Translations under genes and position numbers: made by a program | Source: Candidatus Kryptonium thompsonii | Lineage (GTDB): Bacteria; Bacteroidota; Ignavibacteria; Kryptoniales; Kryptoniaceae | NCBI GenBank assembly: GCA_001442925.1 | Contig: LDXX01000001.1 | Coordinates: forward strand, 186,001-250,000 | Direction of reading: 5' to 3' | DNA: 64,000 nucleotides | Shown here: positions 3,164 to 58,587 of the stretch, one piece after another | How positions within the stretch are numbered: position 1 is the stretch's first letter | How the letters are laid out: every line of letters starts with the position of its first letter | The notes under the pieces: generated by a model | The model's input: the letters and a program-made list of their open reading frames with translations, nothing else | Told to the model about the DNA's origin: nothing | The model's database searches: none

Positions 3164-3706
3164 TTAACCATGTGCAAGAACACCACCGTAAAAACCAGTG
3201 ACCAAAACTAAAACAAAAGTGATAAGACCTATAAGCCAAGAGAATCTTTTTAATCTCTTGACACTTAAGAATAAAAACCATACCCATATCGAAATTGCCG
3301 TCACTATTCCAAGCGTCTCATGTGTTTCAACTACCCACTCCTTTGATGTATCTTCAAACGCAGACTCTTGTAAAACTCCAGTTAAATACGCTGCGATTGC
3401 AAATACTCCAGCAAAGAAAATCAAGAGATTAACTGAGCTTGAAAACTTGTCCCACTTAAATCCTAGGATGGTAAGTATGAACCCTGCAACAACAAAAGCA
3501 ACTGGAAAGTGAACTATCTTGTTATGAACATGCTCAAGTAGATTTTCAGATAATTTAATTTTATACGGTTGAACATTCTGAATTGTCTTTAAAGTATCAA
3601 CATTTGTTTTTAATGTATCTTTTTTATCATGCCTTTCTTTTCCATGAGCAAAAGCAGCAATGGAGATTATAAGCATTAGAATAAACACCGAAAAAATGCG
3701 CGTCAT
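3164..3706 (-). CDS. DUF2231-like membrane protein
   Basis: 180 residues with an N-terminal hydrophobic segment that may be a signal peptide (1-20) and four membrane helices (about 65-83, 91-111, 129-148 and 155-175). Conserved-looking histidines lie at the membrane edges (H59, H61, H66, H129, H179), including the motif HNKIVHFP. Such histidines are typical of DUF2231 proteins, which are often found with metal or cytochrome genes. It lies directly downstream of the terminator that closes the efflux operon, and 62 nt upstream of the zinc-ribbon gene, so it belongs with the ABC group rather than with the RND pump. The function is unknown. Confidence 0.65.
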   Translation of the reverse strand: MTRIFSVFILMLIISIAAFAHGKERHDKKDTLKTNVDTLKTIQNVQPYKIKLSENLLEHVHNKIVHFPVAFVVAGFILTILGFKWDKFSSSVNLLIFFAGVFAIAAYLTGVLQESAFEDTSKEWVVETHETLGIVTAISIWVWFLFLSVKRLKRFSWLIGLITFVLVLVTGFYGGVLAHG

Positions 3707-3791: not shown

Positions 3792-4184
3792 TTAATGCAT
3801 ATGCTCCTTATGCTTGTGTTCTTCTTTTTTCATCTCTTCTTTCTTCTCCATCATCCCCTCCTTTTCTTGCTCCATCTTTTTCATCATCTCCATCATTTTC
3901 TTACTACCCATCATCATCTTGCACATACTTTCACCCATTGCGGTATCTTTCTCGGCATAAGACATAACATGCTCCGCTATCATATCCCTTGCATGTTCAT
4001 CAGCCATGGCTTTGTCTAAAAGTTTCATCATAAGTCCATGGTTGCTCACAATGTAGCTTAAAATTTCATCCGTAGTTTTAGGATCCTTGAAGATTTCCTC
4101 TGCTTTTTTCTGTTGTTGTGCAAAGACTGAATTTAACGCAAGAAGCATACTTACAAAAACTGAGAGAAAAATTTTACTTTTCAT
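3792..4184 (-). CDS. Secreted Met/His/Glu-rich small protein, probable periplasmic metal binder
   Basis: 130 residues with a signal peptide (about 1-22, ending SVFAQ). The C-terminal half is extremely rich in Met, Lys, Glu and His: a run with about 17 methionines (from about residue 82), one Cys in SMCKMMMG, and the end HKHKEHMH. Methionine and histidine clusters bind Cu(I)/Ag(I) and Cu(II), which fits its place as last gene of a Cus-like operon. The N-terminal half has no family I recognise. It is 32 nt after the YtkA-like gene and is followed at once by the terminator. Confidence 0.7.
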   Translation of the reverse strand: MKSKIFLSVFVSMLLALNSVFAQQQKKAEEIFKDPKTTDEILSYIVSNHGLMMKLLDKAMADEHARDMIAEHVMSYAEKDTAMGESMCKMMMGSKKMMEMMKKMEQEKEGMMEKKEEMKKEEHKHKEHMH

Positions 4185-11515: not shown

Positions 11516-12319
11516 TCAATAAGATTCACTTTCGCTGGGAAATTTGCCAGTTTTCACATCGGAAATATAATTTTTAAACGCATCTCTTATAACTTTTGAA
11601 AGTTCAGCGTATCTTCTGACAAATTTTGGCTTAAATTCTTCGAACAATCCAAGCATATCGTAAACCACAAGAACTTGACCATCGCAATATGGACCTGCAC
11701 CTATCCCAATTGTCGGAACCGAAACCGATGAAGTGATTTTCCGCGCAAGTTCTGAGGGTATCTTTTCAAGGACTATTGAAAAAACACCAGCCGATTCAAG
11801 TGTTTTCGCATCGTTTAAAATTTTATCAGCTTCACTTTCCTCAACCCCACGCACATCATAACCACCAAACTTATGAATGCTTTGGGGAGTTAAACCAAGA
11901 TGACCCATAACAGGGATGCCAACACTTGTCAACTTGTAGACAACCTCCGAAATCTCACTTCCACCCTCAAGCTTAACCCCACTTGCGCATGTCTCCTTTA
12001 AAACCCTTCCGCAATTCTTAACTGCCTCCTCAACATTTATTTGATAAGAAAGGAATGGCATATCAACTACTACCATCGCTCTTTTAACACCTCTGCACAC
12101 CGCTTTAGTGTGATATATCATATCTTCAAGGGTAACTGGCAAAGTCGTCTCATGTCCCTGAAAAACATTCCCAAGAGAGTCGCCAACCAAAATGACATCG
12201 ATCCCTGATTCATCAAGTAGCTTAGCGATTAAAAAATCATAAGCTGTCAACATAGCGATTTTCTCACCACGCTTCTTCATTTCAAGCAAAGTTTTTGTCG
12301 TCACCTTATTCAGGCTCAT
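11516..12319 (-). CDS. panB: 3-methyl-2-oxobutanoate hydroxymethyltransferase (pantothenate synthesis)
   Basis: 267 residues, normal for PanB. It transfers a hydroxymethyl group from methylene-tetrahydrofolate to alpha-ketoisovalerate, the first committed step to pantothenate and coenzyme A, in the cytoplasm. Seen are [20 protein letters not shown], the metal-binding [34 protein letters not shown] and [16 protein letters not shown]. It is the last gene of the lipid A/outer-membrane operon and overlaps the lipoyl-transferase gene by 4 nt. No panC or panD is in the window. Confidence 0.96.
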
Positions 12320-13083
12320 AAAATCATTTCCAATAACTTTGTTTCGCTTATCTCTTCAAAACTTATACCAAATTCAACCTCAAATCCTCTCTTCAAAGAC
12401 TCCGCCACCTCTTCAAAACTTACATTACGGCCTAAAATTTCATTTAAACAAATCGTTTTTCTTTCAATTTCCAATTTCATTTTCTCAATTAAATCTTGCG
12501 ACTCAACCTTTAAGAATTCAGGTAACTTTTTATGAAATTCACCGATCAAAATTGAACCATGCTGAAGGACAACATCACCATATCTTCTCTGTGCACTGCC
12601 AACGACTTTTCTACCAGCAAAATGTATCTCATACTTGGCTGAAGTTGCAAAGCAAGGAATGGAGCTAAATTGCTTGTAAATTTTTGAAAAGTTAGGTTGT
12701 GACTCCTCAAGTTCAAATTTCGCACCAAGTAAACTCAATCCCTTTGCTATTCCCCGACTTAACAGATTATAAACCTCAAGAACTGTTTTCCCAGCCCCAT
12801 CCACCACTATTGAATATGTTAACTCCTCCGAATGAAGTATAGCTCTGCCACCAGTGGGTCTTCTAACGAAATCAAACCCTGCCTTTTTTATCTTCTCAAT
12901 GTCAAAAACGGATTCATCTTGATTATATCCGATCGAGATTGCGTAAGGTTTCCATCCGTAAACTCTTAACACAGGCCTTATTTTACCTTTGCCAAAAAGA
13001 TGGGCTAGCCCTCTATCAAAATTCATATTAAATTCACCATCACGAAAACCCGTATTCAAAAATAGCCATTTTCTACTGATCAT
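12316..13083 (-). CDS. Octanoyltransferase LipM / lipoate-protein ligase A family
   Basis: 255 residues. The BPL/LplA/LipB catalytic fold carries the lipoate-binding [11 protein letters not shown] motif, followed by the LipM-like stretch [22 protein letters not shown] and LQHGSI. The cysteine in PCFATS lies where B. subtilis LipM has its catalytic Cys, so an octanoyltransferase is favoured over an ATP-using lipoate ligase. It would attach octanoyl or lipoyl groups to 2-oxoacid dehydrogenases or GcvH. It overlaps lpxA by 11 nt upstream and panB by 4 nt downstream. Confidence 0.8.
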
Positions 13084-13864
13084 AAGGTCCTCTAATTATT
13101 CCTCGCTGACTTGATTCGATGAAGTTAATTATATTTTGAACTTCAGGAATAAGTTCAAATTCTTCTTTCAATTTTTTTAAGGCTTGCGAGACATTAAGAT
13201 TTGATTGATAAATTATCCTATACGCATCTTCTATCTTTTCGATCGTTTCCTTTTTAAAGTTTCTCCGCCTTAAACCAACTATGTTAAGTCCCTCAAACCT
13301 TAACGGCTCTCGTGCAGCCATTATATAAGGGGGAACATCCTTCGGCACGCGCCATCCCCCACCAACAATTGAATGTTGACCAATCCTAACAAATTGGTGA
13401 ACGGGAACAAGTCCGCCAATTACAACATAATCCTCAACTACTACATGACCACCTAAATTAACAGCATTTGCCATTATAACATTATTACCTACCACACAAT
13501 CGTGTGCGATATGCACATAAGCCATTAACAAACAGTTACTACCAATTACAGTTTTCCCCGAGTGGGCTGTGCCTCTGTTAAGTGTGCAAAATTCACGAAT
13601 TATCGTGTTGTCTCCTATTTCAAGTGTTGTCTCTTCACCTTTAAATTTTAAATCTTGCGGAATAGAACCAATCGAAGCCCCGTGGAAAATTTTACAATTC
13701 TTCCCTATCCTTGTCCCATATCCAATGAAAACATTTGGACCGATAACCGTTCCATCTCCGATCACAACATTATCTTCAACTACGGTAAAAGGTCCAATTC
13801 GAACATTATCCCCGATTTGAGCATTCGGGCTGACTACAGCTCTAGGGTCAATGTAGGTGCTCAT
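13073..13864 (-). CDS. lpxA: Acyl-ACP--UDP-N-acetylglucosamine O-acyltransferase
   Basis: 263 residues, the standard LpxA size. It catalyses the first step of lipid A synthesis, transfer of 3-hydroxyacyl from ACP to UDP-GlcNAc, as a cytoplasmic trimer. The N-terminal two thirds are left-handed beta-helix hexapeptide repeats (IGDNVRIGPFTVVEDN and so on), with the LpxA signature HGASIGSIPQDLKF. The helical C-terminus follows (about 190-263). It overlaps lpxC-fabZ by 4 nt. Confidence 0.97.
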   Translation of the reverse strand: MSTYIDPRAVVSPNAQIGDNVRIGPFTVVEDNVVIGDGTVIGPNVFIGYGTRIGKNCKIFHGASIGSIPQDLKFKGEETTLEIGDNTIIREFCTLNRGTAHSGKTVIGSNCLLMAYVHIAHDCVVGNNVIMANAVNLGGHVVVEDYVVIGGLVPVHQFVRIGQHSIVGGGWRVPKDVPPYIMAAREPLRFEGLNIVGLRRRNFKKETIEKIEDAYRIIYQSNLNVSQALKKLKEEFELIPEVQNIINFIESSQRGIIRGPYDQ

Positions 13865-27634: not shown

Positions 27635-29323
27635 TTATTTTAACATCGGTATTTTTATCCCGTGTTTTTTCGCCATCTCGATAGCCTTTTCATATCCCGC
27701 ATCCGCATGTCGAGCTATTCCAAGCCCTGGGTCGGTAGTTAAAACACGTTCTAATCTTACCTCCATTTCCTTTGTTCCATCAGCTACAACTACCATACCA
27801 GCATGAATTGAAAGACCAATCCCAACACCGCCACCATGATGAACTGCCACCCAACTTGCGCCCGCAACGGCATTTAAAAGAGCATTTAAAATTGGCCAAT
27901 CTGCAATTGCATCGCTTCCGTCCTTCATCTTTTCAGTTTCACGGTTTGGAGAAGCAACAGAACCAGTGTCAAGATGGTCACGGCCGATCACAATCGGTGC
28001 TTTAACCTCACCAGTTCTTACCATCTCATTGAAAATTTTCCCCATTTTCGCTCTTTCACCATATCCAAGCCAACAAATTCTTGCTGGAAGACCTTGAAAC
28101 TTAACATGCGCCCTCGCTTTTTGGATCCACCTAACAAGGGACTTATTTTCTGGAAATGTTTTAATCACCGCTTCGTCAGTTGCATAAATGTCTTCTGGAT
28201 CACCGCTTAACGCTACCCATCTAAATGGTCCTCTACCTTCACAGAACAAAGGTCGGATGAACTCGTGAACAAAACCAGGGATTTCAAACGCATCTTTTAC
28301 TCCATTCGCATAAGCCTCGCCACGAATATTATTTCCATAGTCAAAAACAACAGCGCCTCTTCTCTTAAATTCAAGCATAGCTTTCACATGTTCAACAATT
28401 GAACGCTTAGCCATTTGAATATATTTTTGTGGATCTTTCTTTCTTAACTCAAGCGCTTCCTCATAAGGAATCCCATTTGGTACATAACCATTTAAAGTAT
28501 CATGAGCCGAAGTTTGATCTGTAACGATGTCCGGAATTATACCCCGCCTCAAAATTTCAGGCAAAACATCAGCTGCGTTTCCAACAAGACCGACCGAAAT
28601 TGCTTCTTTTTTCTCTTTCGCTTTGAGAACAATTTCAAGTGCTTCGTCAAGGTTATCCGTCATCATGTCAAGATATCCAGTTTGAAGTCTTCGCTCGATT
28701 CTTTTTCTATCGACCTCAACTCCGAGAAAAGCAGCCCCATTCATTGTAGCAGCCAAAGGTTGTGCTCCACCCATTCCACCAAGTCCAGAAGTTAACAAAA
28801 ATCTTCCGGCGAGCGTCCCACCAAAATATTTGTCAGCGCAAGCGGCAAATGTTTCGTAAGTTCCTTGTAAAATGCCCTGAGTTCCAATGTAAATCCAACT
28901 TCCAGCCGTCATCTGCCCATACATCGTAAGACCAAGAGCTTCAAGCCTTCTAAACTCATCCCAAGTTGCCCAAGCTGGGACAAGCATTGCGTTCGAAATT
29001 AACACACGTGGAGCAAATTCATGTGTTTTGAAAATTGCGACGGGTTTTCCCGATTGAATCAACAATGTCTCATCATTTTCAAGCTCTTTTAAACTTTTAA
29101 CAATCGCATGAAAACACTCCCAATTTCTTGCTGCCTTTCCTGTCCCACCGTAAACGATGAGTTCCTCAGGTTTCTCCGCGACTTCGGGATCAAGGTTATT
29201 CATAAGCATTCTTAACGCTGCCTCCTGAGCCCAACCTTTACATGTTAAAACATTGCCACGTGGTGCTTTTATACTTTTAACATCAAACTCTTTTAATTCA
29301 ACTTGATTTAAGATTTCCGCCAT
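27635..29323 (-). CDS. hutU: Urocanate hydratase
   Basis: 562 residues. It converts urocanate to imidazolonepropionate in histidine breakdown, using NAD+ as electrophile. Seen are the NAD-binding [44 protein letters not shown], the catalytic-region [25 protein letters not shown] and [15 protein letters not shown] near the end. GGAGGTGG precedes the ATG at 29323. No hutH, hutI or hutG is in the window. It lies 20 nt after proline dehydrogenase, making a two-gene amino-acid catabolic unit whose pathways both end in glutamate. Confidence 0.97.
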
Positions 29324-47892: not shown

Positions 47893-50173
47893 TTAAAAAT
47901 TCCACACTGGTTCGATGCTCACTGACACGCTGGTTGAGGAAATGGCGTTTCTGAACTAGTTTAAATTCCACACTGGTTCGATGCTCACGAAAGCGCAATC
48001 GATACGATCGCGATATTCATGAACGTTTAAATTCCACACTGGTTCGATGCTCACATTTTTGACCCTTTGTATGTGATCCTGCGAAATGAGAGTTTAAATT
48101 CCACACTGGTTCGATGCTCACCAAAGTGTATGAATACGAAGGGAATCTTTTTTATTTCGTTTAAATTCCACACTGGTTCGATGCTCACTTATTCAAACAG
48201 GGGAAAATTCAATTTTATTTTATAAGTTTAAATTCCACACTGGTTCGATGCTCACTATTTTGATGGTGAGAATTATTATTTATTTGATAAGTGTTTAAAT
48301 TCCACACTGGTTCGATGCTCACAGCAACTAAAAAATACATCTTGCTTATATCTACCTTGTTTAAATTCCACACTGGTTCGATGCTCACACTGATCCAACC
48401 AGTTATACTAAGACAAAAGAAGAAGTTTAAATTCCACACTGGTTCGATGCTCACAGGAAAAACTAATAGACCTATACTCTACAAAATAATGTTTAAATTC
48501 CACACTGGTTCGATGCTCACGCAAAATGCCTGCAGAATGTCGCTTGTCCAGAGGGTGTTTAAATTCCACACTGGTTCGATGCTCACGAATCGCGCTTGCA
48601 GGGTATTTCGACGCTGAAACTTGTTTAAATTCCACACTGGTTCGATGCTCACTATGGAATTTTTCTCTCTTACTGCAAATTGGACAATGTTTAAATTCCA
48701 CACTGGTTCGATGCTCACTCAAAAATGAAGCGGATTGGATAAGGAAAGAAAAACGGTTTAAATTCCACACTGGTTCGATGCTCACAAATTATTTAAAAAC
48801 AACTTATCCCAAAGCCTATATGTTTAAATTCCACACTGGTTCGATGCTCACTAAATGTGATTATCTTGCTTACATAAGTGATAAGGAGTTTAAATTCCAC
48901 ACTGGTTCGATGCTCACAAATCAAAAAAGAGAATGAAAATGCAAAATCAAAAAGTTTAAATTCCACACTGGTTCGATGCTCACAAGGATATAGAAAACTT
49001 ATACTTGCGATAATTGTTTGTTTAAATTCCACACTGGTTCGATGCTCACACTTGAGAGCAACCGAAAAATTGTAATTGAAAACTTGTTTAAATTCCACAC
49101 TGGTTCGATGCTCACAAGAATTTTTGAAAGAGCGATTAAAACCCAAATTTGGTTTAAATTCCACACTGGTTCGATGCTCACCGGTAAAGATAGTGGGCAT
49201 TTTTTATTCCAAAGCATGTTTAAATTCCACACTGGTTCGATGCTCACCGTTGTTTTTGCGATTTTTTAAAAAAATCAAAAAAAGTTTAAATTCCACACTG
49301 GTTCGATGCTCACATATTCGGAATAGGGGTTTCAGAAAACCTATTTCCAGTTTAAATTCCACACTGGTTCGATGCTCACAGATTGCAGAAAGAATTATGC
49401 TGATGGTTGAAATGGGTTTAAATTCCACACTGGTTCGATGCTCACAATGAGGAAGATGTTTGGCTTTTGATTGACCCCACTGTTTAAATTCCACACTGGT
49501 TCGATGCTCACTAAATCAAAAGGAGAATGAAAATGCAAAATGAAAAGGTTTAAATTCCACACTGGTTCGATGCTCACTTCTACTGAGAAAATTCTTACCG
49601 AAAAAATTCATACGTTTAAATTCCACACTGGTTCGATGCTCACATTTAAAGCGAAAGCGGAAGGATTTTTAAAAACATGTTTAAATTCCACACTGGTTCG
49701 ATGCTCACACAATTCCACATTATATCTTGAATCTGAAGGACTTGAGTTTAAATTCCACACTGGTTCGATGCTCACGGAAGTTTGATGGAGAGTGGTGGTG
49801 GGGGTATTATAGTTTAAATTCCACACTGGTTCGATGCTCACTCGCAATTTGGGGGAAATGAGGCATTATTTAAAAGAAGTTTAAATTCCACACTGGTTCG
49901 ATGCTCACGGACCTTGAGAGGTTAAAGTGGGCAAACCGGGAATATGTTTAAATTCCACACTGGTTCGATGCTCACCAATAAATAAAGTTGGACCCGTAAC
50001 ATAACCATATTGTTTAAATTCCACACTGGTTCGATGCTCACAAGAACGAGAAGATTTAAACAAGATTTTGAGAGAGCGTTTAAATTCCACACTGGTTCGA
50101 TGCTCACGTTCTTTGTGTCTTTGGTGGGGAAGTTGATTATTTAGTTTAAATTCCACACTGGTTCGATGCTCAC
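47893..50173 (-). CRISPR. CRISPR array, 35 repeats of 30 bp and 34 spacers (type I-B)
   Basis: On the minus strand the repeat is GTGAGCATCGAACCAGTGTGGAATTTAAAC (written in parts: 5' GTGAGCATCGAACCAGTG, 3' TGGAATTTAAAC). The 3' ATTTAAAC would form the 8-nt crRNA handle. I count 35 units, the first at 50144-50173 next to the leader, the last at 47893-47922. All read as identical except the last, whose handle is degenerate (TTTTTAA in place of TTTAAAC), marking the old, trailer end. Spacers are 35-37 bp. Transcription runs from cas2 side outward. A hidden pair of related spacers lies at 48918-48953 and 49512-49547. The array is long and uniform, so it is probably active. Confidence 0.99.
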
Positions 50174-50190
50174 TCTCCAAAAACTACAAA

Positions 50191-50219
50191 ATTTTACACA
50201 AAAAATCAAATTTTTCCAA
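50191..50219 (-). promoter_or_regulatory. Predicted pre-crRNA promoter
   Basis: Minus-strand TTGGAA (50219-50214), 17 nt, TAAAAT (50196-50191) followed by TTTG. The start would fall about 10 nt before the first repeat. Confidence 0.5.
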
Positions 50220-50228
50220 CCTAAATTA

Positions 50229-50267
50229 AGTCGCGGAGCAAAATGCAAAAATATACGGTCCGCGACT
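50229..50267. repeat. Inverted repeat in the CRISPR leader
   Basis: AGTCGCGGA (50229-50237), 21-nt spacer, TCCGCGACT (50259-50267), a perfect 9-bp inverted pair directly upstream of the predicted leader promoter. It is not followed by a T run, so it is not an ordinary terminator. Confidence 0.85.
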
Positions 50268-50344
50268 AAGAGAAAACTGATTAATTTTTTTCAAACTTTC
50301 AAATATTAAGTATTTAACCGCTAAATTTAACGCCCCAAAACTCT

Positions 50345-50356
50345 GTCCGCGACTAA
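50345..50356. repeat. Third copy of the leader motif, overlapping the cas2 stop
   Basis: GTCCGCGACTAA at 50345-50356 is identical over 12 bp to 50258-50269 and lies 87 bp from it, in direct orientation. The cas2 stop codon is inside it. Confidence 0.85.
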
Positions 50357-50613
50357 ATTATTCTACTTACCTCACTTCTTTCCACACCTATAACTTCCCT
50401 ATCAACCCATTTTTTCTCCATTGAATAAATTAAAACCGAATCCTCATTCAAGTTTATTATTTTTCTCAATTTTACTTTCATTTCCTCAAATTGTCCATCG
50501 CTTAATTCTCCTTCAAATACCGAATTTTGCACCCAATTCAAATACTTTCGCATAAATTTTAAAACTTTGTTCACCCTCTTTTCCGCTATGTCATAAACAA
50601 CTATGTAATACAT
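50353..50613 (-). CDS. cas2: CRISPR-associated Cas2 endoribonuclease-fold protein
   Basis: 86 residues from the ATG at 50613 (MYYIVVYDIAEKRVNKVLKF), with GGGGGG shortly upstream. The open frame reaches seven codons higher into the cas1 stop. Ferredoxin-like fold with the acidic D in VVYDIAEKR and QNSVFEGELSDGQF. With Cas1 it integrates new spacers at the leader end. It lies 11 nt after cas1. Confidence 0.95.
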   Translation of the reverse strand: MYYIVVYDIAEKRVNKVLKFMRKYLNWVQNSVFEGELSDGQFEEMKVKLRKIINLNEDSVLIYSMEKKWVDREVIGVERSEVSRII

Positions 50614-50624
50614 TTCTAGCCCCC

Positions 50625-51659
50625 CTACCACCAAATTTTAAATCCTTCATATTTTTCCTCTCCCATTATATGTTTGATCAGCTTATAACACTCCAATTTT
50701 ATCAGTGTTCTGTAGCTTACACTCCTTTTCAGCTTTGGATGCTTAATTGTCGTCTCAAGCTTTTTATCAAACTCACCAATGAAAATTTTCCTACCCTTAT
50801 CATTCAAATAAGTATAATTTAAATCCTCATTAAAATGCTCAGCTTTTATCTGCCTATGATTTATCAAGCTAAAAATTAACCTATCAACAAGCAAAGGTTT
50901 AAAAATTTCCGATAAGTCTAAACTTAAAGAAAATCGCTTAGTTGCCGGCTCATGAAGAAAACTTACAGCAGGATTAAGTTGTGTTTTATAAATTTCATCA
51001 AGAACCACAGAATACAAAAGTGAGTTTCCAAATGAAATCAGCGCGTTGATAGGATTTGTCGGGGGTCTTCGTTCTCTTTTTTCAAACTTAAAAACTTCCT
51101 CATCAGATTTTATTATGAAGTTCCAAGCATCAAGATATATTTTATTGATTCGTCCCTCGATGCCCAAAATTTCTTCAATCTTCTCACAATTCCTCACCTT
51201 ATCCAGACTGCTTTTAATATCTGAAATGATAAACTCAATTTCATCTTGAAATTCTAAATCGTCCGATCTTGATTGGTAATACTTTAAATTCTTTAAAATG
51301 TTATGACCAGCCGAGTTAATAATCTCCTTCGCGATTTCAATTCTAAGATTTGGATCCAAATAAAATTCCACTTGCCTTACTATGATATATCCTGAAATTG
51401 AACCTTCACGCGGAAAAAATGTACCTGAGTAATGACCATAGTAATCAAAAACGTGCAACGAAATATCATTTTTTGCTAGGAAATTTAAAGCTTTGCTATT
51501 TATATCAATTTCCCCAAAAACAAAAATTGAGTCAATGCTTTCAATTGGTATGATTTTTCTCTGGATATTTTCCTCTTTTTCATCGGAGAATTCAAAAACA
51601 ATTGTATTTTCCTTTCTCCTCAATCTTCCGTGTCTCATTATGTAAAGTGGCTTTTTCAT
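50625..51659 (-). CDS. cas1: CRISPR-associated integrase Cas1 (type I-B)
   Basis: 344 residues from the ATG at 51659 (MKKPLYIMRHGRLRRKENT). A further TTG at 51674 would overlap cas4. It has an N-terminal beta domain (about 1-85) and a C-terminal helical catalytic domain. Likely metal ligands are the Glu in the segment around RINKIYLDAWNF, the His in FLHEPATKRFSLSLD and the Asp of DLSEIFKPLLVDRLIF. It overlaps nothing and is 2-3 nt from cas4. Confidence 0.97.
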   Translation of the reverse strand: MKKPLYIMRHGRLRRKENTIVFEFSDEKEENIQRKIIPIESIDSIFVFGEIDINSKALNFLAKNDISLHVFDYYGHYSGTFFPREGSISGYIIVRQVEFYLDPNLRIEIAKEIINSAGHNILKNLKYYQSRSDDLEFQDEIEFIISDIKSSLDKVRNCEKIEEILGIEGRINKIYLDAWNFIIKSDEEVFKFEKRERRPPTNPINALISFGNSLLYSVVLDEIYKTQLNPAVSFLHEPATKRFSLSLDLSEIFKPLLVDRLIFSLINHRQIKAEHFNEDLNYTYLNDKGRKIFIGEFDKKLETTIKHPKLKRSVSYRTLIKLECYKLIKHIMGEEKYEGFKIWW

Positions 51660-51661
51660 AC

Positions 51662-52171
51662 CTATACCCAACAAAATTCAAAATAACTACAAGATTTACA
51701 AGTGGGGATTCTTACTTTCTCAGGTGCTTTTTCTGATGAAACTATAGCTTTTATATCCTCTAAAACTTTTCGGAGTTTCTCCCTATCCTCATCTTTAAGC
51801 TCAATGATTTCCCTTTTGTGAAGTTTTGGATAATTTATCACACCTTTAAATCCAACTGCCTTTCTCGTCTCAAGATAGTAGATATAGTATTTGACCTGCC
51901 ATATATGAGCTTCCTCCAATTTATTTGACTTTTTAACTTCATGAATAATCTTATTTTCAAAATCAATCCAGTCAATGACTATTGTTTGATCAATATCTAT
52001 TTCCTTGTCTTCTCTCTCATAAGACGTTTGAGATATGAGCTTCCCAATTTTGACCATATCGGATTCGCTTTCAAAATTTAAATTATGTGCAAAAAGCCAA
52101 AGCTTCCTCTTACAAACAAAATAGTAATTCACCATCGTTCCTGTATATTTAACATGTTCGAAAAGCTCCAT
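51662..52171 (-). CDS. cas4: CRISPR-associated exonuclease Cas4
   Basis: 169 residues. The four cysteines that hold the 4Fe-4S cluster are C20 (YYFVCKRKLWLF) and C158, C161 and C167 (CKSCSYFEFC). RecB-type motifs VIDWIDFENKIIHEVKKSNK and AHIWQVKYYIYYLE lie between. It trims prespacers and helps choose those with the right PAM. Present in most type I-B loci. Confidence 0.96.
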   Translation of the reverse strand: MELFEHVKYTGTMVNYYFVCKRKLWLFAHNLNFESESDMVKIGKLISQTSYEREDKEIDIDQTIVIDWIDFENKIIHEVKKSNKLEEAHIWQVKYYIYYLETRKAVGFKGVINYPKLHKREIIELKDEDREKLRKVLEDIKAIVSSEKAPEKVRIPTCKSCSYFEFCWV

Positions 52172-52200
52172 AAGGTTACATAAACAAAGGTTTTAAAAAT

Positions 52201-54420
52201 TCAATCAATAATTCTTGCATCCGCTGAATCTTCAACACCGGATAAGATTAGCCCCACATTATAGTCATATTCGTAATTGACCACCTTAACATTGGCAAGC
52301 AATTCCTTTAAAGCATCGTTGTCAATATAACCACTCAAGGACACTAGTGAATTCATTCTTGTTCTATACAAAGGTATTGGAACCATAAAATCTTTAATTA
52401 ATTCCATAACAAAAATTTTCTCCTTTTTGTCCTTTACTTTTATTCTTTCAATGATATCCTTCAAAGGCGCTTTATTAAGGTTCAATTCATTTAAAATTTT
52501 TAGGTTCTGAACTTCTCTTTCCAATAAACTTTCCGGAATAACTTCAATTTGGCTTATACCCCGAAATATCCTCTGGGCTTCGGATTTTTTATCAACGCTG
52601 AAATTTTCAATTAATCCAAGCGCATTACTAAATTTTGTCCAATAACTTGTTTCTTTTAAATTTTTCTCGGAATAAAAATCTTCGACCATCTTTACCTTCT
52701 GTTCCTCGGAAAGGACACTGTCCTTTAGCAAAGATTTTGTTTTCTCAACTATTTCCTTTTCATAAACATTTCCAAGTCCTGATACATCCCGGGTAAATAT
52801 ATACACATTTGGCCCACTTGGATAAAACTCACCATCCGTTTTAAACCTTCGATAAACTCTACCCATCCTCTGAATTAGAACATCTAAAGGTGCTAACTCT
52901 GTTATTAAAACATCAAAATCAATATCGAGAGATACCTCTATAACCTGAGTAGATATTAAAATTCCTTCAAAATCTTCCCGAAGAACTTTATCTTCTTTAG
53001 AAGCTCTATCCATACGCACAAACCTTGAGTGTAGTAACAATGGGGAAAATTCTTTTAAAGAATCATATAATTCTTGAGACCTCTTAACAGTGTTACATAC
53101 AACGAGTATCTTTTTTACCCGATCTTTCCTTATACTTGTTATAAAATTTTTTAAAGTATTTCCACTTAATGGTTCATCCACTAACTTAATTTTGTGTTTT
53201 TTAAGTTTGGGAACTTTAGTAATACAAAATTCACTATACTCTTCTAATCGGTCTTTTAAAAAAGATGGCAAGGTTGCTGTAACCACAAGAAATTTGCCGC
53301 CGATTTTAGATATTTCTCCCAATCCATGGGTAATTACCGCCATCGTCTCTGGGGAATACGCTTGAATTTCATCAACTACTACTTTTGAATACGAAAGAGT
53401 TGCATAAATTTTCTCAAAGCCAAAATATTTTAAAGTTGCGGTGAAAACTTGATCAGCGGTTGAAACTATCAGCGGATAAGATAAGTCTTTAGCCATTTCG
53501 TAATGGTAAAAAGCGTCATCAGTAGATGTATTTTCCCATTCAAACAGCAAATCACTCAATGCTCCGGAATGAAGTAATCCTACATTATCTTTGCCAAACA
53601 ACTTTGCCATTCTTTCATACATAGCAGTCACGGAAGTTCGCACAGGAAGAGTATAAAATGTTTTTTGGCGATCACTCCACAACAATGCCATCTCTGTTTT
53701 CCCCATTCCAGTAGATGCTAAAACAATTCCGCTTTTATTTTTAAGTTCATCACTTATTTCTACCAATTGCCATGGTTGTTTAGTTTTTGTAAGTAAAAAA
53801 TTTTCAGTTTTACCATACTTATCTATAGGTTCAGATTCAACTAGAACACCAGCAGAAGCTGAGTGGTCTATTCTATTTAAAAGCCCTAGAAGAATTACAA
53901 ATTTCGATTCTTTTTCTAAATCAAAAACTCCATCAATTCGCCGTGAATAGTATTTCCTTAAAATTTCTACATTTTTTCTGAATATCCCCCTTTTTACCAG
54001 AGTAAAAGCCCTATTGAAATATGTACTTAGTTTTTCTATATAGTTTTGGACATCAGAATAAATCTCATTTATTATTTTATCGTCCTTTAAATCAGGAAAA
54101 TTTCTCCAATGATGGAAAGCCACCATTTTTAAAAGAAGTTCATCATCATCTTCAATAAAAAGAAGTGATAAGAAATTATGAGGGATTTCAGAAGCACCAT
54201 GAGACTCACTTCCTCTGATCTTCTTTTGAAAAGCAGAATTTGCTTTCCCAAAATCATGGTAAAAACAAGGTTTTCTTAATATTTCCCAATCTTTATCTTC
54301 AAGCTGTATTCCCAACTTGCCCCCTAATCTTTTTAAATCCTCAAATGCATTTAATACATCTTCAATATGTTCTTTCAGAGTTTTCTGTGGATGAGATTTA
54401 GCAATTATTTCATCCACCAT
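52201..54420 (-). CDS. cas3: CRISPR-associated Cas3 nuclease-helicase
   Basis: 739 residues. The N-terminal HD nuclease has H18, H55-D56 (FYHDFGK), H81 and H103-H104 (AFHHWRNFPD). The superfamily 2 helicase follows, with Walker A LASTGMGKTE (K241), DEIQ box (350-353), TATLPSF, ISTQVIEVSLDIDFD and QRMGRVYR. It is recruited by Cascade to unwind and shred the target. It overlaps cas5 by 16 nt and ends 29 nt before cas4. Confidence 0.97.
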   Translation of the reverse strand: MVDEIIAKSHPQKTLKEHIEDVLNAFEDLKRLGGKLGIQLEDKDWEILRKPCFYHDFGKANSAFQKKIRGSESHGASEIPHNFLSLLFIEDDDELLLKMVAFHHWRNFPDLKDDKIINEIYSDVQNYIEKLSTYFNRAFTLVKRGIFRKNVEILRKYYSRRIDGVFDLEKESKFVILLGLLNRIDHSASAGVLVESEPIDKYGKTENFLLTKTKQPWQLVEISDELKNKSGIVLASTGMGKTEMALLWSDRQKTFYTLPVRTSVTAMYERMAKLFGKDNVGLLHSGALSDLLFEWENTSTDDAFYHYEMAKDLSYPLIVSTADQVFTATLKYFGFEKIYATLSYSKVVVDEIQAYSPETMAVITHGLGEISKIGGKFLVVTATLPSFLKDRLEEYSEFCITKVPKLKKHKIKLVDEPLSGNTLKNFITSIRKDRVKKILVVCNTVKRSQELYDSLKEFSPLLLHSRFVRMDRASKEDKVLREDFEGILISTQVIEVSLDIDFDVLITELAPLDVLIQRMGRVYRRFKTDGEFYPSGPNVYIFTRDVSGLGNVYEKEIVEKTKSLLKDSVLSEEQKVKMVEDFYSEKNLKETSYWTKFSNALGLIENFSVDKKSEAQRIFRGISQIEVIPESLLEREVQNLKILNELNLNKAPLKDIIERIKVKDKKEKIFVMELIKDFMVPIPLYRTRMNSLVSLSGYIDNDALKELLANVKVVNYEYDYNVGLILSGVEDSADARIID

Positions 54421-55163
54421 ATAGGTATCCCCTCTTTATCTGTGTTTATTATCCTTATTTGTCTTTCTGTAATTCCTTGTTCTGCTTGGGCATAAATCAC
54501 TTTTATCATTTCAAAATTTCTAAATATTTCTAGATTCTCTCGCTTCCTTCGGCCCCGCTTGCTTTTGTATTTTGGTTTTGATACAAGCTTGTAGTAAGCA
54601 GGCAGCATATAAGGTATACCTTCGATTTCGAAAGTTTCAGCCATATCAAATCGAATGTAAGAGTTATATGGAAGTTTTATCTCTCCTCCTTCGGTCGTTG
54701 AAAGGTCTAACTCTAATTCTTCATCCTCATTCACCTCCATGTTAATAATCAAATCCTCAGGTCTGCCCAAATATGGGAAATACGGAGGATCAAGAAGAGA
54801 TGCCAAAAGCTTATTGTGAAGTTCCGCGCTTGGCATTTTTATGTGAATAATCAGTTCTAAATCCACCAAAAAAGTGACGATAATAGGATATGGTTTTCCT
54901 TCCGTCTCCTCCGCCTTATACTTGTGATATCTAACAAATTCCCGACACAAATTGCCATATTTTCCCTGAACAGAAATATTTATTCCATCTATGGTCTGAG
55001 AACTGGAAAGCATGTCATGAATAAAACCAAGAACTGTAGAATAAGGCGGAAGCGGGTAAGTTTCTATTATTTCCATTGAATACGGGGTACGGAATACCGC
55101 CTTTTCCTGAAATGTCTTAAGCTTTATTATTCTGTTCATCTGAAGCTTTTTACTTCTTTTCAT
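54405..55163 (-). CDS. cas5: Cascade subunit Cas5 (Cas5t-like, type I-B)
   Basis: 252 residues; the ATG at 55139 (MNRIIKLKTFQEKA) is an alternative start. RAMP fold, with KLKTFQEKAVFRTPYSMEI and TYPLPPYSTVLGFIHDML, typical of Cas5 N-termini, and the Gly/Arg-rich loop KYKSKRGRRKR (about 208-218). It binds the 5' handle of the crRNA. It overlaps cas7 by 14 nt and cas3 by 16 nt. Confidence 0.93.
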   Translation of the reverse strand: MKRSKKLQMNRIIKLKTFQEKAVFRTPYSMEIIETYPLPPYSTVLGFIHDMLSSSQTIDGINISVQGKYGNLCREFVRYHKYKAEETEGKPYPIIVTFLVDLELIIHIKMPSAELHNKLLASLLDPPYFPYLGRPEDLIINMEVNEDEELELDLSTTEGGEIKLPYNSYIRFDMAETFEIEGIPYMLPAYYKLVSKPKYKSKRGRRKRENLEIFRNFEMIKVIYAQAEQGITERQIRIINTDKEGIPIWWMK

Positions 55164-56058
55164 TGAAAGCTTTCTCTACCTCTTCCTTAATTCTATCTAG
55201 AGCATCAAAAGGTGAAACTGTTATTCCAAAATCATCTCCAAACTCCCCCTTCTGAATTCCCAAATGTGTCAAATCGCCTATTATTTTTATCTCCTTTTCA
55301 CTAACCGTATATTTTGCCTCAAGAACCTGTTTCAAACTTTCATAGTTTATAAAAGGTTTGGAACCTTTAAAGATTACATTTACAGCATTGTGGAAAAAGA
55401 GAGACTTTTTATGATATACGCCACCAATAACGAATATGGGTTTTAAATCTTCTCTTCTACCTCTTATATCGCGATATAGAAATTTGGTAGCTTCTATTAA
55501 ATCACATACTCTTTTTATCTTCTCTTCTTTGGAAAGGTTATGACCAAAATTTTCATCCTTACCAACTTTATCTAAATCAACAGATAGAGAATATTTGTAA
55601 TAACCATATCCGGTTTCTATATTTGCCATATCTGGGTTTTCTCCAAGCCTATCAGCAAAATTTTTATTTGTCAAAAGCTCTTGATCACCAAACCATGGCT
55701 CAAAAGAGATTAAGTGTGTTAATCTTGCAACCGCTGCTCTTGTTTGCGCCTGCCTCCCCCTACCAGCAGTTATCATATATCCAAAAAGATCTGCTTCTTC
55801 TGGAAATTCTTTTTTTAACTGTTTGGGATCATACTGTTTTACGCCCTGCTCTGAGGTTAATTGCGCGTATTTCCAAATTCCATGTTCTACAAGCCAATTT
55901 ACTATAGAATATCTCAATGCTTGGCGAGAAGTAAAAAGAAATGTTTCTCCACTTCCTCTGTGAATTTTTTTAGCTATTGAGACGTTCCCATATCCCTCGT
56001 CATAGTTGCATGGGAATGCCTTTACAATGTAAGTTATTGTTAATCCTTTTCTATTCAT
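55150..56058 (-). CDS. cas7: Cascade backbone subunit Cas7 (Cst2/DevR family)
   Basis: 302 residues. Cst2/DevR-type features are GLTITYIVKAFPCNYDEGYGNVS, the RNA-binding AGRGRQAQTRAAVARL and RPFFVIGGVYHKKSLFFHN-like segment. Several copies line the crRNA in Cascade. It overlaps cas8 by 4 nt. It assigns the locus to type I-B, the old Tneap group. Confidence 0.95.
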   Translation of the reverse strand: MNRKGLTITYIVKAFPCNYDEGYGNVSIAKKIHRGSGETFLFTSRQALRYSIVNWLVEHGIWKYAQLTSEQGVKQYDPKQLKKEFPEEADLFGYMITAGRGRQAQTRAAVARLTHLISFEPWFGDQELLTNKNFADRLGENPDMANIETGYGYYKYSLSVDLDKVGKDENFGHNLSKEEKIKRVCDLIEATKFLYRDIRGRREDLKPIFVIGGVYHKKSLFFHNAVNVIFKGSKPFINYESLKQVLEAKYTVSEKEIKIIGDLTHLGIQKGEFGDDFGITVSPFDALDRIKEEVEKAFNEKK

Positions 56059-57821
56059 TGTTTACCCCCTGTATTTGTTTCTTTTTCCTTAACCGTAGAA
56101 GTTTCTTCTTCGGTAGGATTTATAAAGCCAGTTAAGAATGCAAGGGCTTTTTCTTGAAAGGAAATCTCTTCGCTTTCTGTTAATAGAGAGAATAGGTTTT
56201 CTGGGACAGGTTTTTTATATACGACAAAAAGTCTTAAAAGTTCATGATAAAAATCTTCCTTTCTACCACCCCTAATTAATGTTAAAAATCTCTGGGAGAT
56301 ATGAAAACGTTTCTCCTGATCAATTTCCTCGATTGAAAAACTTCTTCTACTCACTGCTTGAATACTTTTTAATATGCCATAAGATTTTTCAGCGCTCATA
56401 TTTAACCTCCTTTTTTGATTTATTAAAAATTCCAGTAAAATTAAACTCCAAATAGGCAACATATATTTATCCCTCTCACTTAGTTTCTCAGATAACATTT
56501 TAAAAGCAATGTGAATTAAGGGCTTTTTTTCAATAAGTCTCTTTAATATTTCGGTAGAAAGATATACAGAATTGCCTTTATAGATCTCATATAAAAAAGA
56601 AAGATTATTTAAAAGCGTGTCGAGTTTAAATTCGCTAAAAATTTCCGAAAATGCTTTATCGATGTTAAAGTAAACAAACTTAGGTTTTGCTTGATCTTTC
56701 CGCGCTGATACTTTGATTTCAGCAAAATATGTATTTTCTAATAACCATCGCGTTTTCTTCTTCGCTAACTGGAGAATTAACTCAAAGGATTTAAAATAAG
56801 TATTTATTTTTTCAGTAAATATTCCGAGGTGGAATTTGTCCAGTAGTGTTTGAAGTTTGTTGTTAACAGAAAATACTTCCTCAAAAGATGGATAATTGAC
56901 AAAAATATAGTCTGTTCCATCCAATTCCCTCATCTGCCAAGGTTTTAAGTTAAAGCCCGCAAACGCGCAAAGAAGAATAAGCTGACATAAATGACACTTT
57001 CTGTTATAAGAGACGCCATTCATAGCATAATAATTATAGAAATTAGCAAAAGTATTACTACTGATACCTAAAATAGAGAAATCACCTTCGCTAAGTTCTG
57101 AAAGACCTTCTTCTGGATAATTTTTGCCACATAAAATGCATAAATTATCTCCATTTTCTCTATTAAGCATTTCAAGTATTGGGTTTAAATATCTTTCTTT
57201 AAAATCTTCAGGCCTTTTTAAATTTTCTCCTTTTGGATTTGCAATTACTACCTTATTGAAATAGAACCGCCCCAAAAAATCTGCTTGTGCTTTGAAGTCA
57301 AAAACAGAAAAACAAATATCGGCAAAATATTTATTGATATTATCTACAATTTCCTTTATCTTTCTTCTTTCTTTTTTAGTGTTTAGTGACTTCTTTAACT
57401 CTCTCACGATTTCTTTGACCTTTCGCATAGACTCAGTTTTTATATTCAAAACCTCTTTCCTAAAAGTGCTCCACTTTTTATTTCCTTTAAGATTGAAAAC
57501 TCTTCTTTGAATTCCGTTTTCCAGTTCTTGAATTTTAGATATTATTTTATTGCTCTCTTTGTTTTTTAATCCTTTTGCAAAATTTATAATCTCTTTTAGA
57601 TTGAGGTTTTGTAATAAATAGAGTTTGGATGCATATTCAAAATAGTATATCTCAAAACCATCTAACGCAGAGATTTCAACTTCAACACTTCCATCCCCCT
57701 TAAATTCAAATGCCCTCCTCTTTCCCCCAAACTCCAACACCCTCAAAAACCCCACAACCCCTGCATTATATAACCAGTTTGAGGGATAGAGGGTTATCTT
57801 CCGTTCTTTTTCAACGGCCAT
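56055..57821 (-). CDS. cas8: Large Cascade subunit Cas8 (Cst1, CXXC-CXXC type, I-B)
   Basis: 588 residues. N-terminus TLYPSNWLYNAGVVGFLRVLE and two CXXC motifs (C228/C231 in NLCILCGK and C276/C279 in RKCHLCQL) are the signature of the Cst1 family, a zinc-binding Cas8. Charged coiled segment about 90-165. It recognises the PAM and recruits Cas3. It lies 22 nt after cas6. Confidence 0.93.
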   Translation of the reverse strand: MAVEKERKITLYPSNWLYNAGVVGFLRVLEFGGKRRAFEFKGDGSVEVEISALDGFEIYYFEYASKLYLLQNLNLKEIINFAKGLKNKESNKIISKIQELENGIQRRVFNLKGNKKWSTFRKEVLNIKTESMRKVKEIVRELKKSLNTKKERRKIKEIVDNINKYFADICFSVFDFKAQADFLGRFYFNKVVIANPKGENLKRPEDFKERYLNPILEMLNRENGDNLCILCGKNYPEEGLSELSEGDFSILGISSNTFANFYNYYAMNGVSYNRKCHLCQLILLCAFAGFNLKPWQMRELDGTDYIFVNYPSFEEVFSVNNKLQTLLDKFHLGIFTEKINTYFKSFELILQLAKKKTRWLLENTYFAEIKVSARKDQAKPKFVYFNIDKAFSEIFSEFKLDTLLNNLSFLYEIYKGNSVYLSTEILKRLIEKKPLIHIAFKMLSEKLSERDKYMLPIWSLILLEFLINQKRRLNMSAEKSYGILKSIQAVSRRSFSIEEIDQEKRFHISQRFLTLIRGGRKEDFYHELLRLFVVYKKPVPENLFSLLTESEEISFQEKALAFLTGFINPTEEETSTVKEKETNTGGKQ

Positions 57822-57843
57822 AGTTGGTTTTAGCTTGTTTATT

Positions 57844-58587
57844 TTACACTTCCCTTACAAGATCAATCATTCCAAAACCTTCACCCCTTCTTGAACCAAG
57901 CCCCGCTTTGTTTATGAGATTCAAAACATCAACAGGCGCACTAAGATAAAATACACCTGTAAACCCCGGAAATTTTAAATCACCGTATTTAGTCATATGC
58001 TTGACAACGACCCTCTTCAACTTCACCGGTTTAAACTCAACTTCAACCGAATCAATCCCAATTAAATTTCTAGCAAGTTCATTTACATTAAACCTAAACG
58101 CCTCATCAAAATCCTCATCCCCGCTAAAATTCTCACACTTGGGACAAAGATAATGCTTCTCATTTTTATGACTTCTTATCAAAACAGGGGCAAGGGTTCT
58201 AAATATAGCCGAATCTTTTCTTATCTCTTGTTTATTCAAAACCCTTATCGACGAAACCTCAAAACTTTGCTGGTAAATGTTTAATCTCTTATTCTTCACA
58301 AGATAGTTATAGATGTAAATCTCATACACTAAATCAAACGAGCTAAATTTAAACTCTACCGGCTTTGTAAAAAAGATTTTGTCTTCAATTATCTCTATCT
58401 CATCCCCAAATGTTACAGCAAATGTATATGGCTTAACAGTTCTCCTACCGAAGATAAGTTCATATTGCTCCCCTGCCTCGCTTTGGATGGCGCTTTTAAT
58501 AATTGACATGAAACCCGGCCTGTAATCAACGGGTAAGTGAACCCCGCCTTCATTTGAAGCTTCTGCCTTTAAAATACTCAGAAGCAA
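57844..58587 (-). CDS. cas6: CRISPR RNA endonuclease Cas6
   Basis: 247 residues from a TTG at 58587, preceded by GGAGGG with good spacing. It has a RAMP fold with the family's C-terminal glycine-rich loop GLGSRRGEGFGMIDL (about 229-243). A CPKCENFS pair (about 148-155) is an extra CxxC. It cuts the repeat to release crRNAs with the ATTTAAAC handle. First gene of the cas operon. Confidence 0.94.
   Translation of the reverse strand: MLLSILKAEASNEGGVHLPVDYRPGFMSIIKSAIQSEAGEQYELIFGRRTVKPYTFAVTFGDEIEIIEDKIFFTKPVEFKFSSFDLVYEIYIYNYLVKNKRLNIYQQSFEVSSIRVLNKQEIRKDSAIFRTLAPVLIRSHKNEKHYLCPKCENFSGDEDFDEAFRFNVNELARNLIGIDSVEVEFKPVKLKRVVVKHMTKYGDLKFPGFTGVFYLSAPVDVLNLINKAGLGSRRGEGFGMIDLVREV

Follow-up and report, generated by a model that had tools for sequence, protein, structure and literature searches.

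A two-armed dyad in a type I-B CRISPR leader, held in helical phase with the first repeat, as a candidate docking site for the spacer integrase

Introduction

The literature examined does not settle by what means type I-B integrases locate the leader end of a CRISPR array. The window, which is the whole 64,000-nucleotide stretch of DNA analyzed here, holds a type I-B cas operon and an array, and the leader between them carries one short motif three times. Is this motif an operator for a regulator, or an anchor for the adaptation complex? The original prediction offered both answers. They are weighed here using the copies of the motif in the genome, the leaders of relatives, and the helical geometry of the leader.

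Results

Layout of the leader and copies of the motif

On the minus strand, cas2 is followed by site A, site B, a 21-nt loop, site C, 55 bp of further DNA, and the array (Table 1). Cas2 is a separate 93-aa protein, and Cas1 is of type I-B (TIGR03641). No regulator gene was recognized in the rest of the cas operon, and the 588-aa ORF in the cas8 position (window 56055-57821) was without an NCBIfam or Pfam match. Three HU/IHF-family genes are present in the genome. The leader block that contains AAAAATTTG (window 50174-50215) resembles the DNA upstream of tRNA genes in relatives (L025, L026, and L034), and this type of block may be a strong promoter type of the genus.

Table 1 Features of the leader and its surroundings in the window. 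All promoter calls are consensus matches only.
Feature	Position in the window	Strand	Remark
CRISPR array	47894-50173	-	about 35 repeats GTGAGCATCGAACCAGTGTGGAATTTAAAC; left end approximate
Leader-repeat junction, first base of first repeat	50173	-	position -k = window 50173+k
Site A (AGTCGCGGA), third copy, oriented as B	50346-50354	-	overlaps cas2 stop TAG (50353-50355)
Site B, left dyad arm (AGTCGCGGA)	50259-50267	-	-94 to -86
21-nt loop with invariant TTTTTGCATTTT (50240-50251)	50238-50258	-	class consensus TTTTTGCAYTATT
Site C, right dyad arm (TCCGCGACT)	50229-50237	-	-64 to -56
Phased A-tract 1 (AAAAATTT)	50208-50215	-	centre -38.5
Phased A-tract 2 (ATTTTTT)	50200-50206	-	centre -30
Phased A-tract 3 (AAAATTTT)	50188-50195	-	centre -18.5
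Phased A-tract 4 (TTTTT)	50179-50183	-	centre -8
Putative pre-crRNA promoter	50181-50209	-	-35 TTGATT 50204-50209, 17 bp, -10 TAGTTT 50181-50186
cas2	50353-50634	-	TIGR01573, PF09827
cas1 (type I-B Cas1b)	50625-51674	-	TIGR03641, 445.6 bits
Rest of cas operon: cas4, cas3, cas5b, cas7, 588-aa ORF, cas6	51662-58587	-	

The 9-mer TCCGCGACT stands on the minus strand at site C and on the plus strand at sites B and A; chance would give 0.11 copies per 64 kb. Sites C and B form a perfect 9-bp inverted repeat with a spacer of 21 nt. Sites B and A are direct copies, identical over 12 bp (GTCCGCGACTAA) and 87 bp apart from start to start, with site A on the cas2 stop codon. This arrangement of the copies had been predicted and is confirmed. 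Two details were revised. With the -35 and -10 boxes placed in the present analysis, 19 bp rather than about 10 bp separate the end of the inverted repeat from the -35 box. The motif had also not been noticed elsewhere in the window, and a fourth copy was found at 29175-29183; it lies within a urocanate hydratase gene, so it is background.

The 2.59 Mb genome contains 11 copies of the 9-mer, compared with 15 occurrences of a reversed control pattern. Six copies lie within open frames of at least 316 aa. The remaining five, which are all of the non-coding ones, belong to the leaders of two arrays that share one repeat, and non-coding DNA is free of scattered copies. The second leader (G000:C10) is 93% identical to the window leader and has no cas2 beside it. 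Non-coding copies occur only in these two array leaders; the motif is therefore a leader feature and no operator of a regulon.

The inverted pair in leaders with the same repeat

Six leaders with the window repeat were compared from three species of the genus, two each in G000 (the genome of the window), G001, and G003. The inverted pair is kept in all six, at -93 and at -64 to -57, with G003b two bases further, and the loop TTTTTGCATTTT is invariant among them. In G001, all three copies read AGTCGTTGA in place of AGTCGCGGA (CGCGGA to CGTTGA), which is a coordinated change. In G003, the pair is kept with one mismatched position and site A is lost. Site A is kept in G000b and in both G001 leaders, which are near-identical to each other. 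The dyad is also kept in G000b and G001b without a preceding cas2. The leaders of relatives with the same repeat therefore keep the motif although its letters change. Of the outcomes that would have refuted the original prediction, absence from such leaders was not seen, nor was scattering through non-coding DNA.

The cas operons beside the G001 and G003 arrays look broken, judging from what can be read of them. Only the end of cas2 is readable beside the G003 array. In G001 (L074, G001:C21, about 12300-13100), cas1 consists of its last 37 residues only, and cas2, the full leader, and three repeats remain. In G003 (L075, G003:C5), two solitary repeats of the window repeat family lie outside an array, at 1542 and 3957. 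Because the sequence after the repeat at 3957 is the same as that after the array end in L077, this repeat would be an assembly break or a displaced single repeat.

A second type I-B system of the genus, with the repeat GTTTGAATCGAACCTGTGAGGGATTGAAAC, has its own conserved leader dyads, which differ from the window dyad. These are CTCTGACA...TGTCAGNGAG, TTTCCGAGAA...TTCTCGGAAA, and two GTTAACA, followed by a clear TTGACTT/TATATT promoter. The system was seen at L073 (G000:C7), L078 (G003:C12), L079 (G002:C35), and L151 (G005).

A conserved leader dyad across the class

The DNA downstream of 60 class Cas1 genes was retrieved, and arrays were present in most. A single-protein Cas1 scan of genome contigs gave no match, and class relatives were gathered by genome search instead. 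A general inverted-repeat scan missed many leaders with mismatched arms, which were recovered by position-based alignment. About 45 other class leaders carry a dyad at equivalent places. The core of this type I-B leader dyad is TYGTCR...YGACRA, with the half-sites 34-35 bp apart and the loop TTTTTGCAYTATT; GTC and GAC are the invariant core letters. Most class leaders share a common layout of a GTCGTCG arm, a C-rich stretch, the TTTTTGCAYTATT loop, and a TCGACGAC arm, at a nearly constant distance from the repeat. No motif of this kind in type I-B leaders was known to the original prediction; a related dyad proves to be common there.

The two arms covary. Double changes occupied 16 cells, compared with 7.9 in shuffles, and 0 of 500 shuffles reached 16; sliding the partner arm lowers the count. 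Whole arms have changed with the symmetry kept (GTCGCGGA, GTCGTTGA, CTTCGACC, CTTGAACC, and CCCGAACC), and the last three are the mirrored arms of a second leader group (within L182-L194). At the core pair 5-44, both T-G (4) and C-A (4) combinations were found.

The window cores, 34 bp apart with the T-rich GCA loop TTTTTGCATTTT, match the class dyad definition. A covariance model of the dyad (R1) reported no match in the leaders of the window genus. A gap-tolerant PSSM was then built from 35 leaders of other genera, with the window genus left out. With this PSSM, the window B-C dyad came third among the 127,904 window positions, in its proper place and strand, and G003a scored above all but one of the same positions. 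Since R1 is silent on the window genus, the window dyad is probably a divergent member of the conserved type I-B leader dyad. Up to 8 letters of the dyad loop (GCACTATT; A1 columns 26-33) recur in the central part of many L136-L174 repeats (CGCACTATTG), which may be chance.

Restriction of the dyad to arrays

Searching 391 class genomes with R1 gave 44 places, in 40 of the genomes, under strict filters that may miss weak sites. Outside the training loci, 7 of 7 checkable matches lie 49-62 bp before a CRISPR repeat, and one more meets a contig end. In the phylum sample, 18 genomes of other classes gave R1 matches. Of 15 inspected places outside the class, 14 precede an array and the remaining one meets a contig end. 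A regulon operator is rejected, since the 9-mer copies beyond the leaders are all in long ORFs and the R1 matches that could be checked are all at arrays.

Among named genomes, a pattern scan located the dyad in one Ignavibacteriaceae MAG and one Flavipsychrobacter MAG, as well as in Paenibacillus sp. NAIST15-1. The latter belongs to another phylum, and its locus (L254) is RAMP-rich and type III-like. Near-consensus dyads lie at 2753-2800 and 3307-3354, one per array, about 118 bp from the array and with the loop reversed. This suggests borrowed or transferred adaptation machinery. An array-free reading of L254 was dismissed, since each of the two dyads is on the leader side of an array.

Helical phase and A-tracts

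The B core is 35 bp from the C core in 45 leaders and 34 bp from it in 7. The distance from the C core to the first repeat was determined in 69 leaders. The values were 58-61 bp (42 leaders), 70-72 bp (17), and 80-82 bp (10), with no others, and the window value is 59 bp. The three classes are one helical turn apart. About 14 families account for the 27 shifted leaders. Because the leaders are related to one another, the counts are not independent and shuffle statistics overstate independence. The distance from the putative -10 box to the repeat is also mostly stepped (12-14, 22-23, 33-34, and 42-44 bp). The C core is mostly 37-39, 46-48, or 56-59 bp from the -10 box, and the dyad thus keeps helical phase with the putative promoter too. 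The dyad stays in phase with the repeat also in leaders with 22-44 bp between the putative promoter and the repeat.

A-tracts occur every 10-11 bp between the dyad and the repeat, at about -40, -30, -19, and -8 in the leaders of the 59-bp type. Compared with dinucleotide shuffles, the 10.5-bp A-tract signal of 50 leaders had z = 14.5; for the window leader alone, 0 of 1000 shuffles matched the phasing. Phased A-tracts curve DNA. Because these tracts are one helical turn apart, the leader DNA between the dyad and the array should be curved.

The third copy

Upstream of B, at 74-99 bp, a direct third copy is present in 13 leaders (G000a, G000b, G001a, G001b, L154, L166, L169, L182, L183, L184, L188, L189, and L194). 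It matches the local arm, whatever the letters of that arm. In 12 of the 13 leaders, at most 4 of 100 shuffles were as good; for G001b the number was 12 of 100. L156 and L161 have an inverted third copy at 58 bp. Most leaders with cas2 ending right at B have no third copy. Site A is thus a recurring optional element.

Discussion

A candidate docking site and its alternatives

The dyad is rigid and two-armed, is found only at arrays, and is phased to the leader-repeat junction over presumably curved DNA, which fits a docking site of a C2-symmetric complex. We consider it probable that the B-C dyad, together with the presumed built-in curvature, places the Cas1-Cas2 integrase at the junction. 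A two-fold symmetric complex, most likely Cas1-Cas2 (with Cas4), would grip the two half-sites, and a host HU/IHF-type protein may or may not take part. The curved DNA would bring the dyad and the junction to the same face of one complex, and this contact would mark the place where a new spacer is inserted. Lying about 7-9 turns upstream of the dyad, site A would be an optional additional half-site that probably gives the same assembly a second grip. We infer, by analogy, that Cas1-Cas2 has the same role at the type I-B dyad as in type I-F. The original prediction is thus partly supported: its adaptation anchor fits an array-only dyad phased to the first repeat better, and an operator specific to the array remains the rival.

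Several observations count against the docking site. The helical phase between dyad and promoter would be explained equally by an activator. A purely symmetric ligand would not call for a conserved, asymmetric loop. The genome has three HU/IHF-family genes, so the curvature need not replace a bending protein. The different dyads of the second type I-B system of the genus and the distant, loop-reversed dyad of Paenibacillus also belong here.

The strongest rival is a factor with a dual role like Csa3a. A dedicated dimeric regulator would bind the dyad upstream of the -35 box and control pre-crRNA transcription, and could also act on adaptation. The 19 bp or so to the -35 box and the kept phase with the -10 box suit such an operator, and Csa3a of Sulfolobus is a precedent (PMC9456107). 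However, no regulator gene was recognized in the cas operon, and with no copies away from arrays there is neither a regulon nor a cas-operon site. An operator also needs no phase with the repeat, and the dyad-repeat distance is quantized even with the promoter 22-44 bp away. We regard this explanation as unlikely.

Less likely still is a hairpin in RNA or in a cruciform, in which the arms pair on the same strand, such as in the cas mRNA 3' end or in extruded DNA recognized by Cas1. The folding energy of the window stem is -15.2 kcal/mol (z = -4.0), the arms covary, and S. islandicus Cas1 prefers stem-loop DNA near the junction (PMC9456107). However, leaders not preceded by cas2 (G000b and G001b) keep the dyad as well, the conserved loop lacks symmetry, and being in helical phase with the repeat is meaningless for RNA. 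The T-G and C-A combinations at pair 5-44 indicate that strict pairing is not demanded; together with the repeat phasing, they disfavor a pure RNA hairpin. The reading without function, in which shared descent and array duplication are combined with chance repeats, fits the 93% identity of the G000 leaders and the near-identity of the G001 leaders, but it is highly improbable and mostly refuted, because position and symmetry persist across the phylum while the letters change, and by covariation, array restriction, distance quantization, and A-tract phasing.

Returning to the docking site, a wider proposal is made only tentatively. The type I-B systems of the phylum may use a coevolving three-site (A-B-C) address and helix-phased A-tracts that pre-bend the leader, by which the integrase would find the junction with little or no need for an IHF-type protein. 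The half-site code (types GTCG, TTCGAC, TTGAAC, and CGAAC) would drift with the integrase and help to separate co-resident systems. Coevolving half-sites suggest how two type I-B systems in one genome could separate their arrays. The fixed spacing and the repeat phase make integrase docking directly testable, and the dyad profile finds array leaders in unannotated genomes. Part of the description of dyad and phasing may already have been catalogued.

Comparison with known systems

In type II-A, leader motifs control spacer integration (PMC5382924, PMC6895254); the likeness is that leader DNA determines spacer integration. In Sulfolobus type I-A, a leader-distal motif at -143 to -94 is the binding site of Csa3a, which activates transcription and modulates Cas1, and a proximal stem-loop is bound by Cas1 (PMC9456107). 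A distal leader motif is needed for adaptation there, as proposed here. In contrast, a separate transcription factor binds it in Sulfolobus, and none was recognized in the window cas operon.

The type I-E leader has an IHF site and an integrase anchoring site. In IHF systems, the leader motifs are phase-dependent, according to work cited in PMC9602844. Here, too, an upstream anchor would act over bent DNA and helical phase matters, whereas the anchor is a two-armed dyad with a fixed spacing of 34-35 bp.

In the type I-F leader, which is bent by IHF, the inverted repeats are contacted by Cas2 residues R55/N56 (PMC12259127). The shared traits are inverted half-sites in the leader, a C2-symmetric integrase, and probably a folded leader needed at the insertion site. 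The window differs in its subtype, TYGTCR half-sites, conserved loop, phased A-tracts between dyad and repeat, and optional third direct half-site. The window system does not have the type I-F Cas1-Cas2/3 proteins. Because Cas1 is of type I-B and Cas2 is a separate protein, the window system is not a member of type I-F, and by analogy it would work like the type I-F docking repeats.
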